Assembly (NCBI RefSeq): GCF_025464835.1
Contig: NZ_JAODMP010000021.1
Span: 62,001 to 126,000, forward strand
Direction: 5' to 3'
DNA length: 64,000 nt
Origin: Mycetocola sp.
Lineage (GTDB): Bacteria > Actinomycetota > Actinomycetes > Actinomycetales > Microbacteriaceae
The notes beneath the pieces are model-generated. The model worked only from the letters and a program-made list of their open reading frames with translations. It was not told the origin of the DNA and searched no databases. The position numbers were made by a program, and so were the translations under genes. Positions 22,525 to 60,104 of the stretch are shown here, one piece after another (the first letter of the stretch is position 1; the number at the start of each line of letters is the position of its first letter).

Positions 22525-23828
22525 CCGAATACCGCACTGTCCGAGTGGCGCTGCTCGGGGCCGGCTCCGTCGGCTCCCAGGTGGCAAGGCTGCTCCTCGC
22601 CAACGGGGACGAGCTCGCCGCCCGCGTCGGCGCGAGACTCCAGCTCGTTGGGATCGGCGTCCGTGACCTCGACGCGCCCCGCGACGTCGAGCTGCCCCGT
22701 GAACTGCTGACAACGGATGCCGAGTCCCTCGTCGTCGGCGCCGACATCGTCATCGAGCTCATCGGCGGGATCGAACCGGCCCGGACACTCATCCTGCAGG
22801 CCATCAACGCCGGGGCCGATGTCGTCACGGGAAACAAAGCGCTCCTCGCCGCGCACGGCCCGGAGCTCTTCGACGCCACCGAACAGGTCGGCGCCGAGAT
22901 CTACTACGAAGCCGCCGTCGCCGCCGCGATCCCGATCATCCGGCCCCTCCGTGACAGCCTCGCCGGCGACAACGTCAAACGCATTCTCGCGATCGTCAAC
23001 GGCTCGACCAACTTCATCCTCGACCGGATGGACCGGTTCGGCGACAGTATGGAAGCCGCCCAGAAGACGGCGTTCGAGCTCGGGTTCCTGGAAGCGGATC
23101 CGACGCTTGACGTCGACGGCTACGACGCCGCCCAGAAAGCCACCATCCTGGCCAGCCTCGCCTTCCACAGCACGGTTCCCGCGGACGGCGTCTACCGCGA
23201 AGGCATCGCCGACATCACGCCCGCCCAGATCGACGCCGCCCGAGCCGCCGGCTATGTCATCAAACTGCTGGCCATCGCTGAACGGATCACCGCCGACGAC
23301 GGCACCGAGGGGATCTCGGCACGGGTGTACCCCGCGCTCGTCGCCCGTGAGCATCCGCTCGCCGCTGTGCACGGAGGAAACAACGCGGTCTTCGTCGAAG
23401 CCGAAGCAGCAGGGTCCCTGATGTTCTACGGAGCAGGAGCCGGGGGAGTGCAGACGGCGTCAGCAGTCCTCGGCGACCTCGTCTCGGCTGCGCGCCGCCA
23501 CATTGCCGGAGGCCCCGGTCTTGGCGAGTCCACGCACGCCGACCTCCCTCTGCTGCCGATCGGCGCCGTGATCACCAAGTACCAGATCACCCTGCGGGTG
23601 AGTGATCTTCAGGGGGTCCTCGCCGAGGTGGCGATGATCTTCGCCAACGGCGGCGTCTCGGTCGAGACCGTCGAGCAGACGGTCGATTCGGTCGACGCGG
23701 GAACGGCATTCCTGGTGATCGGCACGCACGCTGCCCGTGAGCGCGCGCTCCAGGCCACCGTTGCCGCGCTGAAAGCCAGCGATGTAGTGGATTCAGTTGT
23801 CAGTGTTCTACGAGTTGAAGGAGTCTAG
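22521..23828 (+). CDS. hom: homoserine dehydrogenase
   Basis: Reduces aspartate semialdehyde to homoserine, feeding threonine and methionine; 435 residues. The Rossmann motif [15 protein letters not shown] is at about 9-23, GNKALLA follows near 112, the catalytic region [19 protein letters not shown] is near 190, and a C-terminal ACT domain begins at about 354 ([19 protein letters not shown]), where threonine would act as feedback inhibitor. It overlaps lysA by 4 nt and is followed 2 bp later by thrC. Confidence 0.95.
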
Positions 23829-55781: not shown

Positions 55782-56867
55782 GTGCGACGCGTCATACTTC
55801 TCGGATCAACCGGCTCGATCGGGACCCAGGCCCTGGACGTCATCCGGGCCAACCCTCGACGCTTCGAAATTGTCGGCCTCTCGGCGCACAGCAACCGTGA
55901 TCTGCTCCAGGCGCAGGCCGACGAATTCCGCGTCGAGGACACCGCTCTCGGTGCCGATGAGGCCGAACGCCTTGTCCGCTCCGTCGACGCCGATGTCATC
56001 CTCAACGGAATCACGGGTTCTGTCGGCCTCGGCCCGACGCTCGCTGCGCTCGAGACCGGGCGCACCCTCGCTCTCGCCAACAAGGAGTCACTCATCGTCG
56101 GGGGAGACCTCGTCAGCCGGATGGCGAAACCCGGCCAGATCGTGCCCGTCGACTCCGAGCACTCCGCGATCGCGCAGGCGCTTCGCTCGGGAACGAAAGA
56201 GGAGGTCCGTCGACTCGTGCTGACGGCATCCGGTGGTCCGTTCCGGGGAAGCAGCAGGCAGTCCCTGGCGAAGGTCACGCCGGCGGAGGCCCTCGCCCAT
56301 CCGACCTGGGACATGGGACGCGTGGTCACCACCAACTCGGCGACCCTCGTCAACAAGGGGCTCGAGGTCATCGAAGCGCACCTGCTGTTCGATGTGCCAT
56401 ACGAGCGGATCGAGGTGGTCGTGCACCCCCAGTCGATCGTGCACTCGATGGTCGAATACGTCGACGGGTCCACCATCGCCCAGGCGTCACCGCCGGACAT
56501 GCGGCTGCCGATCTCGCTCGGCCTCGACTGGCCCGCCCGTGTCGCCGGTGCCGGGAAACCGCTGGACTGGACCCGCGCCCAGAACTGGACGTTCGAGCCG
56601 CTCGACGACGCGGCGTTCCCCGCGGTCGAGCTGGCGAAAACCGTCGGCCGTGCCGGTGGCACGTACCCTGCAGTGTTCAACGCGTCGAACGAACAGCTCG
56701 TGGCGGCGTTCCACGCCGGCGCCATCGGATTCCTGGACATCGTCGACACGATCTCCCGCGTCGTCGACGCGCACCGCCCGGATGGCGAACTCACCCTCGA
56801 GACTCTTTCTGCGGCAGAGACGTGGGCTCGCGATGAGGCCGATCGGGCGATCGCAAACCTGCGTTAG
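55782..56867 (+). CDS. dxr: 1-deoxy-D-xylulose 5-phosphate reductoisomerase
   Basis: Second step of the MEP isoprenoid pathway, NADPH-dependent, 361 residues. It shows the NADPH motif [17 protein letters not shown] at about 4-20, [14 protein letters not shown] near 103, the metal/substrate motif [12 protein letters not shown] near 125 and the flexible loop [23 protein letters not shown] near 174. It is near a site-2 protease gene as in many bacteria, but here the MurE-like gene is between them. Confidence 0.96.
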
Positions 56868-57022
56868 CCGCTGCCGCCCGCCTGTTCACGCGTTCCGCAC
56901 GAGTACACGCGGCACCCCGGGTGTTCCGGTCCGGGTCGGGTGTTTTCGCCCCCGCCGATCGGGGGATCGCGGAGATGCGCTGAGCAGTCGCCCGCATCCG
57001 GACTCCGCCCTCCTTGTTTCAC

Positions 57023-57118
57023 ATTCAGCAGAATTGAGTGACACGCCGTGCGAAACGGACCTCGCGTCGGCGTGTCGCGAGAATCTGCTGAATTTGAGGG
57101 CCGTTGCTGAATTTGAGG
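57023..57118. repeat. compound inverted and direct repeat (REP/MITE-like) after dxr
   Basis: ATTCAGCAGA (57023-57032) pairs with TCTGCTGAAT (57084-57093); inside it GACACGCCG (57040-57048) pairs with CGGCGTGTC (57068-57076). The 14-mer TGCTGAATTTGAGG occurs twice, at 57086-57099 and 57105-57118. The whole dxr-murE gap (56868-57167) has no gene, only this element. It could be a REP-like or non-autonomous mobile repeat. Confidence 0.55.
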
Positions 57119-57167: not shown

Positions 57168-58667
57168 CTAGACCCAGCCGGCCTCAGCCAGTGCGGCCCG
57201 CGTCTCGACGAGCACCGAGAAAGGGATCCTGACTCCGGCGACTTCGCGGTAGTCCTTCTCGGCGAGACCAGCCCAGAGGATCGTGTCTGCGGCGGTCGCC
57301 TCTCGGACGGCGACGCGAATCGCCTCCTCAGGCGCGGCGACCTCACGGATGTCTCCCGCCGGTTTGGCAGCGCGCGCTCCTGCGAGCACCGCCTCGCGAA
57401 TGAGGGCCGGGTCCTCGGACCGTGGCTGGTGGTCGGTGACGATGAGCAGGTCGCTGCCCAGGGCGGCCTCACGCCCCATCTCGGGGCGTTTGGACTGGTC
57501 GCGGTCACCGTTGGCGCCGGCGACCATGATGACGCGCCCGGTGGTGAGGTGACGGACCGCCTCGAGCGTTTTCGCGAAGGCCTGTGCCGTGTGCCCGGAG
57601 TCCACGTACACGGCGGGACCGCCGGGCACAGGAACCTGCACGGCGCGCCCAGGCAGGGAGGCGGTGATGCCCCCGTCCCGCCGGAGAACGGCTTCGATGT
57701 CGGCGAGTGGGACGCCTGATTCGACGAGCATGGCGACAGCGAGTCCGCCGTTCGCGGCCATATGCCTGCCGATCACCGGAACCCGGCTGGAGAGCGTCCC
57801 GTGTTCCCTGTGCCGAAGCGTGAAGGCGGTGTACGACGGTTTCTCCTCATCGACGGTGACGGTCCAGTCGGCTGCCGCGTCCTCGATCGAGGTGATGGTG
57901 GTCACCGGGATGCCGGCACGCTCAACGACCACCGACCCGGCAGGAGTGTCGAGGGAGACGACCCCGTGCCTGGCATGAGCCGGCGTGAAAAGCTCCAGCT
58001 TGGCCGCGAAGTAATCGTCCATGTCGGTGTAGTCGTCGAGGTGATCCTGGCTGAGGTTCGTGAAACCGGCGACGTCGAAGACGAGTCCGTCGACCCGGTG
58101 CCGTGTGAGGGCGTGCGCGCTGACCTCGACGATCGCCGCATCCACACCGGACTCACGCATCCGTGCAATCAGGGCATGCAATTCGGGGGACTCCGGCGTC
58201 GTCATCGAACTAGGGACGACCTCTGCGCCGATCCGGCGCTCTGCGCTCGAGCTCAGTCCGGTCGACCGCCCCAGCTGCCGAAGAACGGAGTCGAGGAAAT
58301 GCGCCGTCGACGTCTTCCCGTTGGTGCCGGTCATGCCGAAAAGCTGCGGCGCGTCCCGGTCGGTCTGGTAGAGCCATGCCGACATCTCACCGACGAGGAT
58401 GCGCGGCGATTCCACAGTGACCAGCACCGGCACTCCGGATGCCGTCGCCTCGACCAGGCCGGCGGCATCCGTGAGGATGGCGACCGCTCCGCGCTCGACT
58501 GCCTCGACGGAGAACGTGGCGCCGTGGAATCGCGCCCCTGGTACGGCGACGTAGAGGTCACCCGGTTGGACGGCACGACTGTCCATCGTGATGCCGGTCA
58601 GGGTCACCGGCTGGAGCTCATCATGCACCGCGAGGCAGAACCGGGCAGCGAAGGCGTCGAGGGTCAT
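57168..58667 (-). CDS. MurE-like Mur ligase with atypical substrate loops
   Basis: A 499-residue Mur ligase by domain order: UDP-binding start (TLTGITMDSRAVQPGDLYVAVPGARFHG), ATP loop GMTGTNGKTSTAH near 111, NLSQDHLDDYTDMDDYFAAKLELF with the carbamylated Lys near 223, and GANGDRDQSKRPEMG near 385. In MurE the DAP-binding loop is DNPR; here it is DHQPRSEDP (near 412). The second DAP contact loop GKGHE reads AGLAEK (near 466), and DYAHTPD reads DSGHTAQ. It may add another diamino acid, or be a paralogue with another acceptor. The ATG at 58667 is a family-like start; no Shine-Dalgarno was seen. Confidence 0.82.
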   Translation of the reverse strand: MTLDAFAARFCLAVHDELQPVTLTGITMDSRAVQPGDLYVAVPGARFHGATFSVEAVERGAVAILTDAAGLVEATASGVPVLVTVESPRILVGEMSAWLYQTDRDAPQLFGMTGTNGKTSTAHFLDSVLRQLGRSTGLSSSAERRIGAEVVPSSMTTPESPELHALIARMRESGVDAAIVEVSAHALTRHRVDGLVFDVAGFTNLSQDHLDDYTDMDDYFAAKLELFTPAHARHGVVSLDTPAGSVVVERAGIPVTTITSIEDAAADWTVTVDEEKPSYTAFTLRHREHGTLSSRVPVIGRHMAANGGLAVAMLVESGVPLADIEAVLRRDGGITASLPGRAVQVPVPGGPAVYVDSGHTAQAFAKTLEAVRHLTTGRVIMVAGANGDRDQSKRPEMGREAALGSDLLIVTDHQPRSEDPALIREAVLAGARAAKPAGDIREVAAPEEAIRVAVREATAADTILWAGLAEKDYREVAGVRIPFSVLVETRAALAEAGWV

Positions 58668-58775: not shown

Positions 58776-60104
58776 GTGGAATCCGTGCTGCTGTACATCC
58801 TCGGCGTGCTGATCATTCTGATCGGTGTCGCCGTGTCGATCGGTCTGCACGAAATCGGGCACCTGATTCCCGCCAAGCTGTTCGGCGTCAAAGTCACCCA
58901 GTACATGATCGGGTTCGGCAAGACCCTCTGGTCGACGAGGAAGGGCGACACCGAATACGGCATCAAGGCGATCCCGCTCGGCGGCTACATCTCCATGATC
59001 GGCATGTACCCGCCAGGGAAGGACGGCGCCACCCGCAGCTCAAGCACCGGTTTCTTCCAGACCCTGGTGCAGGACGCCCGCTCGGCGAGCGCCGAGACCG
59101 TCGGCGACGGCGACGAGCACCGGACCTTCTCCGGGCTCCCCGTGTGGAAACGCGTCATCATCATGCTCGGCGGGCCCGCCATGAACCTGCTCCTCGCGAT
59201 CGTGCTCGTCGCGATCGTGCTGATGGGCTTCGGCATCCCGCAGTCCACGCCGACGCTCGCGTCGGTGAGTCAGTGTGTGCTTCCGGCGACGAGCGAGAAG
59301 ACCGCGTGCGAGGCAGGGGATCCGCTCGCCCCGGGCGCCGCGGCAGGTCTCAAGCCCGGTGACACAATTCTCTCCATCGATGGAACGAACATCGACTCGT
59401 GGGCCGATGCGACCGAGATCATCCGCACCTCGCCAGGCACCGAACTCGATGTCGCCGTCTCGCGCGACGGCGCCGAGCTCGCGGTGACACTGACGCCGCT
59501 GCTCACCGAACGGTACGCGATCGACGCGGACGGCGAACAAGTGACGGATGCCTCGGGCGAGCCGGTAACGGAGGAGGTCGGTTTCGTGGGCATCGCCTCC
59601 CAGACCGAGCTCGTGCCGGAGCCGCCCACCGCGGTTCTCCCCGCCGTCGGCGACAACATCGGCCACGTCGCGAACATGATCGTCAACCTGCCCGACCGCC
59701 TCGTCGACGTGGCCAACGCCGCATTCGGGCCGGGGGAGCGCGACCCGAACGGGCCGATCAGCGTTGTCGGCGTCGGCCGGATCGCCGGTGAAGTGGCCAG
59801 CCTCGAAGAGGTTCCGCTGGCGAGCAAAGTGCAAACCATGGTCGGCATCGTCGGCTCGCTCAACGTCGCCCTGTTCGTCTTCAACCTCATCCCGCTCCTG
59901 CCGCTCGACGGCGGCCACGTCGCAGCAGCACTGTGGGAGTCGATCCGTCGGGGCTTCGCGAAGCTGTTCCACCGTCGCGACCCGGGCCCCGTCGACGCTG
60001 CGAAACTGATGCCGGTTACGTTCCTTGTCGTGATCCTGCTCGGCGGAATGAGCGTGCTCCTGATCTTCGCCGACATCGTCAAGCCGGTTAACCTCTTCGG
60101 CTGA
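58776..60104 (+). CDS. site-2 intramembrane zinc metalloprotease (RseP/Rip1-like, M50)
   Basis: Regulated intramembrane protease, 442 residues. The zinc motif HEIGH is at about 25-29 in the first membrane helix, followed by the conserved loop GFGKTLWSTRKGDTEYGIKAIPLGGYISMIGM. A PDZ domain spans about 190-290 (PGAAAGLKPGDTILSIDG), and the third zinc ligand motif NLIPLLPLDGGHVAAAL is near 370. In mycobacteria Rip1 cleaves anti-sigma factors. The track ORF begins 1 kb upstream in the antisense of the MurE-like gene; GTG 58776 is the true start. Confidence 0.93.
   Translation: MESVLLYILGVLIILIGVAVSIGLHEIGHLIPAKLFGVKVTQYMIGFGKTLWSTRKGDTEYGIKAIPLGGYISMIGMYPPGKDGATRSSSTGFFQTLVQDARSASAETVGDGDEHRTFSGLPVWKRVIIMLGGPAMNLLLAIVLVAIVLMGFGIPQSTPTLASVSQCVLPATSEKTACEAGDPLAPGAAAGLKPGDTILSIDGTNIDSWADATEIIRTSPGTELDVAVSRDGAELAVTLTPLLTERYAIDADGEQVTDASGEPVTEEVGFVGIASQTELVPEPPTAVLPAVGDNIGHVANMIVNLPDRLVDVANAAFGPGERDPNGPISVVGVGRIAGEVASLEEVPLASKVQTMVGIVGSLNVALFVFNLIPLLPLDGGHVAAALWESIRRGFAKLFHRRDPGPVDAAKLMPVTFLVVILLGGMSVLLIFADIVKPVNLFG

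Follow-up and report, generated by a model that had tools for sequence, protein, structure and literature searches.

Which amino acid does the MurE-like ligase encoded at this locus place at position 3 of the peptidoglycan stem peptide, and is this ligase the main MurE of the cell or an additional one? The third residue has been used for decades to classify Microbacteriaceae. We examined the gene in the context of the window (the whole stretch of Mycetocola sp. DNA analysed, 64,000 nucleotides), of its genome and of the family.

The relocated murE is the only MurE gene of the genome

The gene and the two neighbours that mark its new location are:
55782-56867, (+) strand: dxr (neighbour gene)
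57168-58667, (-) strand: murE, the sole MurE of the genome (open reading frame list, profile searches and structure match)
58785-60104 (start approximate), (+) strand: rseP-like site-2 protease gene (neighbour gene)

The murE product is a complete open reading frame of 499 amino acids flanked by dxr and the site-2 protease gene; the reading frame, its coordinates and its neighbours were as the earlier note had given them. Its nearest named relatives belong to Mycetocola (89% and 81% identity), and the dN/dS ratio was 0.072 in comparison with Mycetocola miduiensis and 0.129 in comparison with M. manganoxydans. At a dN/dS of about 0.07 purifying selection on the gene is strong, and this value ruled out a pseudogene or a drifting gene.

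The enzyme had been suggested to be a possible paralogue with a new acceptor, and a search for a second, canonical murE in the dcw cluster had been proposed. Searches with the window protein and with TIGR01085 did not find a second MurE in the assembly, which is rated 99.97% complete. The weaker matches on contig C17 corresponded to murF, murD and other parts of the dcw cluster, and those on other contigs to other ligase-like or unrelated genes. The cluster reads mraZ, rsmH, ftsL, ftsI, murF, and passes from ftsI to murF with no murE between them: murF starts about 75 bases past ftsI, at the spot occupied by murE in most relatives. Since there is no second MurE in the assembly and none in the dcw cluster, murE is the housekeeping, essential MurE of this genome, relocated to the dxr-rseP interval. 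The position outside the dcw cluster and the unusual loops would agree with a paralogue that has its own role alongside a canonical MurE, but such a paralogue is hardly tenable against the sole MurE of a nearly complete assembly, a dcw cluster devoid of murE and five further genomes of the genus with one MurE apiece. The earlier note had counted against its own reading the lack of a canonical MurE elsewhere, combined with the same loops in relatives with meso-DAP walls; the former was indeed observed, whereas no such meso-DAP-walled relatives were seen.

The new location is not restricted to this strain. In the remaining five genomes of the genus and in genera g2, g17, g54 and g76, murE adjoins rseP together with dxr or an FKBP gene, and in genus g102 it adjoins dxr. 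The move from the dcw cluster into the dxr-rseP interval would have taken place in an ancestor.

The enzyme has the MurE fold and an altered acceptor pocket

The window protein passed the TIGR01085 (murE) model with 337.7 bits (cut-off 257.3) and contains all three domains Mur_ligase, Mur_ligase_M and Mur_ligase_C. Its predicted structure (pLDDT 87.4) gave MurE structures as the top matches: the meso-DAP-adding enzymes of mycobacteria and E. coli (8g6p, 2wtz and 1e8c; TM 0.88-0.91, 29-39% identity in structural alignments) and the L-lysine-adding MurE of S. aureus (4c12; TM 0.90). It missed the cut-offs of the DAP equivalog models (411.6 vs 476 bits for NF001124). It also missed NF010628, the model of L-lysine-adding MurE (199.9 vs 536 bits), which is centred on another lineage and is weak evidence alone. 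Homoserine-adding MurE is a functional class without a curated model.

The following elements were located in the gene:
58308-58328, (-) strand: ATP loop GTNGKTS, residues 114-120, canonical (sequence, invariant columns)
57999-58001, (-) strand: K223, equivalent of the carbamylated lysine (E. coli K224; alignment)
57582-57602, (-) strand: D-S-G-H-T-A-Q, residues 356-362, in place of D-Y-A-H-T-P-D; Tyr357 replaced by Ser (alignment)
57420-57431, (-) strand: H-Q-P-R, residues 413-416, in place of D-N-P-R; amine-binding Asp gone, Arg retained (alignment)
57255-57269, (-) strand: G-L-A-E-K, residues 467-471, in place of G-K-G-H-E; Lys471 stands where E. coli has the amine-binding Glu, E468 (alignment)

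The domain order, the ATP loop, the carbamylated lysine, R389 and P415-R416 are shared with the meso-DAP enzymes, and the catalytic set is intact (E181, H209, K223, R341, H359, R389 and D390 in the numbering of the window protein). The retention of the ATP loop and of the carbamylated lysine, which had been noticed from the sequence, held on alignment, where GTNGKTS and K223 form invariant columns. The changes reported earlier as DHQPR, AGLAEK and DSGHTAQ are likewise real when aligned to E. coli MurE. The first of them is not a longer loop, though: D412 is the usual residue before position 413, so the E. coli DNPR reads HQPR and an insertion was ruled out. In E. coli numbering, used below for positions 357, 413 and 468, Y357 is replaced by S, D413-N414 by H-Q and K465-G466-H467-E468 by L-A-E-K, with G464, P415 and R416 retained. 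The meso-DAP contact loops DNPR and GKGHE are therefore absent, the enzyme reading HQPR and GLAEK instead.

Arg416 of E. coli MurE binds the distal carboxylate of DAP; its counterpart in S. aureus MurE is Ala409, whereas the window enzyme keeps the arginine. In the S. aureus enzyme, the residues matching D413 and E468 (Asp406 and Glu460) hold the side-chain amine of lysine (PMC3829189). This acidic pair for the epsilon-amine has no acidic counterpart in the window MurE, which has His413 and Lys471 in the respective places.

Loss of the acidic residues across Microbacteriaceae

We compared 129 MurE sequences from 126 Microbacteriaceae genomes of 78 genera. The altered loops are not confined to the window gene: the acids at 413 and 468 were both absent in 62 of the 129 sequences, mostly with HHPR and GPGHQ. 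An acid at 468 only was found in 52, mostly with FHPR or YHPR and GPGHE, both acids in 14, and an acid at 413 only in one. Outside the family, both acids were present in all MurE sampled (28/28). Because none of the 12 window-clade sequences has either acid, the dN/dS is as low as 0.072 and all 28 outsiders have both, the motif changes in the window MurE are more than chance.

Residue 357 was Tyr in 49/49 sequences of the set with F or Y at 413 and E at 468 (F/Y-E), Phe in 39/41 sequences of the set with H at 413 and Q at 468 (H/Q); the window clade has Ser or Ala there. Since the F/Y-E and H/Q sets were picked by positions 413 and 468, the extra information lies in residue 357 and a few other columns, and the relatives are not independent. 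Phe357 alone is not diagnostic, being also present in sampled MurE with both acids.

Ten of the 14 sequences with both acids formed one divergent DDVH/GKGHE clade (L094, L095, L097-L100, L062, L076, L077 and L081), apart from the native family clade, which looks like a gene replacement. This lineage is the only MurE in several Microbacteriaceae genera, and among the species of the Aurantimicrobium-like genus g79 both DDVH/GKGHE and YHPR/GPGHE occur. In some genera a second MurE with neither acid is encoded outside the dcw cluster, of the H/Q type in g65 and with Y/R and GHGHR in g91 and g20; in g65 and g91 it accompanies a dcw MurE of the Dab type (F/Y-E). Such genera may possibly use two third residues or make another product. 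The loci concerned are L117 (G071a), L156 (G071b), L169/L170 (G097), L079 (G024b) and L187 (G120). A strongly altered MurE with GHSR/GFGDD (L073), located after mraY in the wall cluster and not between ftsI and murF, was seen in G019, presumably Tropheryma whipplei Twist.

Relation to published wall types

In the Schleifer and Kandler scheme, position 3 is said to be L-homoserine in B2beta walls and L-Dab in B2gamma walls. Rhodoluna lacicola, with a B2beta wall containing homoserine and D-Dab (PMC4156110), has the MurE loops HHPR/GPGHQ and hence, like the window enzyme, lacks both acids. Clavibacter nebraskensis, with a B2gamma wall containing Dab (PMC5358740), has YHPR/GPGHE. Both enzymes are native Microbacteriaceae MurE, as is the window enzyme, and both are encoded in the dcw cluster, in contrast to it. 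The Rhodoluna MurE shares H413 and P415-R416 with the window MurE and differs in Q468, in GPGHQ instead of GLAEK and in F357 instead of S357, whereas the Clavibacter MurE also lacks the acid at 413 but retains E468 and Y357. Both species fit a rule that pairs an acidic residue 468 with a third amino acid bearing a side-chain amine. In the comparison with the wall types of relatives, advised in the earlier note, the loss of acids follows the published types of the two clearest anchors. Pontimonas salivibrio (genome, PMC6106888), reported to be without homoserine (PMC4156110), has DDPR/GPGSQ, with D413 retained and Q at 468, and obeys the rule only if D413 alone suffices.

In the literature searched, we found nothing usable on the wall structure of Mycetocola, either for the strain or for the genus, no paper on sequence determinants of homoserine-adding MurE and no published rule for predicting homoserine or Dab addition from sequence. 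Homoserine as the third residue has long been known and is listed as such (PMC3681970); what is added here is the sequence signature and the relocation of murE.

A foreign MurE in genus g78 and the phylogeny of the native enzymes

One of the three g78 genomes examined (G145, locus L130) has a native dcw MurE with F357/H413/Q468. In the two others (G084, L110; G270, L102) the dcw murE is replaced by a foreign MurE, the only one of the genome, with F357/S413/K468. The 15 nearest relatives fetched for this foreign enzyme, all from other families, retain Y357, D413 and E468 (15/15); they are only about 40% identical, and the donor was not found among them. The replacement in g78 thus reached the same acid-free pocket by different substitutions, with the Lys at 468 recurring as in the window enzyme. 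This is the strongest individual argument for the view that the changes may serve one acceptor type, and the foreign MurE offers a second, independently evolved test case. It also bears on the idea that the loops drifted without meaning and that substrate pools set the specificity. In S. aureus, the active site has limited specificity for lysine and the cytoplasmic pool plays a role (PMC3829189); the purifying selection, the conservation within clades and the convergent triple change in g78 nevertheless make drift highly improbable.

In a FastTree phylogeny with the two loops removed, the window clade was nested among the H/Q sequences (support 98). In the mixture-model tree the clade itself was supported at 100/100 and its joining to the H/Q set weakly, at 57/83; the alternative joining to the Dab-type set was not rejected (p-AU 0.32), and the backbone nodes of the gene tree are weakly supported. 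The dxr location common to g102 and the window clade is a hint, separate from the tree, of a link with the H/Q set. As g102 has murE at dxr and yet carries HHPR/GPGHQ, the GLAEK loop seems to have arisen after the move of the gene.

The probable acceptor amino acid

We propose that the window MurE works as Mur ligases usually do, with ATP, an acyl phosphate and the carbamylated lysine, and couples the third amino acid to D-Glu of the UDP-MurNAc dipeptide; this mechanism is suggested by residue conservation. The pocket lacks both carboxylates that hold the amine of DAP or lysine in known MurE, His413 and Lys471 replacing D413 and E468, and Tyr357 is gone as well; such a pocket probably takes an amino acid without a side-chain amine, most likely L-homoserine. 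We therefore favour, with some confidence, a housekeeping MurE that builds a group-B wall and uses L-homoserine as its acceptor. The homoserine-adding activity of group-B bacteria is known biochemically, and the same chemistry is predicted here. Of the earlier suggestion of a different third residue or a paralogue, the former gains support by inference, from the loss of the amine-binding acids in much of the family and its agreement with the wall types of the two clearest anchors, and the latter does not. The genome encodes a homoserine dehydrogenase; its only match to this domain lies in the window at 22932-23483, about 34 kb from murE, and this shared location is probably fortuitous.

Several points speak against homoserine, and the named anchor genomes are few. 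Pontimonas is without it and has Q at 468, with D413 retained; no role is obvious for the retained Arg416; position 468 is Lys in the window clade vs Gln in Rhodoluna; and the joining of the clade to the H/Q set is weak, with the Dab-type joining still allowed. Moreover, Mycetocola has been described with lysine as the wall diamino acid, and the enzyme could add L-lysine (or another diamino acid such as Orn or Dab) by reading the amine through residues other than 413 and 468. In the same direction, Lysinibacter contains L-Lys in a wall of unknown structure (PMC7033078). However, the positive or neutral His413 together with Lys471 would be unfavourable to an amine, the S. aureus E460A variant is almost without lysine activity (Km for lysine >20 mM; PMC3829189), and the Micrococcaceae-like and replacement MurE sampled retain both acids. 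Frigoribacterium and Parafrigoribacterium have B2beta walls with lysine (PMC7033078), hence lysine can be a bridge residue in such a wall. Lysine or another diamino acid as the acceptor is thus not very likely, and under the homoserine reading any wall lysine would be in the interpeptide bridge.

The acceptor could also lack a side-chain amine without being homoserine, e.g. L-Glu, L-Ala or L-Ser, with Lys471 pairing with a side-chain carboxylate. Schleifer and Kandler reportedly included group-B walls whose third residue is Glu or Ala, and the window clade has gone past the Rhodoluna pattern, exchanging a GPGHQ-like loop for GLA(S/G/E)(Q/K) and F357 for S357. On the other hand, Glu470 next to Lys471 may neutralise it, K468 arose also in g78, where a congener shows the H/Q pattern, and we know of no relative near Mycetocola with Glu, Ala or Ser as the third residue. 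We consider this option quite improbable. There is a similarly slim chance that specifically the GLAEK pocket (Lys468, Glu467 and Ser357) takes a third residue other than homoserine, e.g. an acidic or small neutral one; if so, the stem-peptide chemistry would be one not recorded for Mycetocola and its neighbours.

A signature at 357, 413 and 468 that separates walls whose third residue bears a side-chain amine from those where it does not would allow this residue to be predicted from genomes, including those of uncultured bacteria. It would also shed light on the making of stem peptides that lack a side-chain amine and so leave the group-B cross-link via D-Glu as the route.

A dispersed intergenic element

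Between murE and dxr, at 57010-57117 of the window, we noticed a hairpin element of a dispersed intergenic type. It consists of CTCAAATTCAGCA, a stem around GACACGCCG...CGGCGTGTC, and TCTGCTGAAT-TTGAG or a close variant. The 13-base core is present in 15 copies in the genome, compared with 0 for the reversed control, and folding of the window copy gave a z-score of -4.5.
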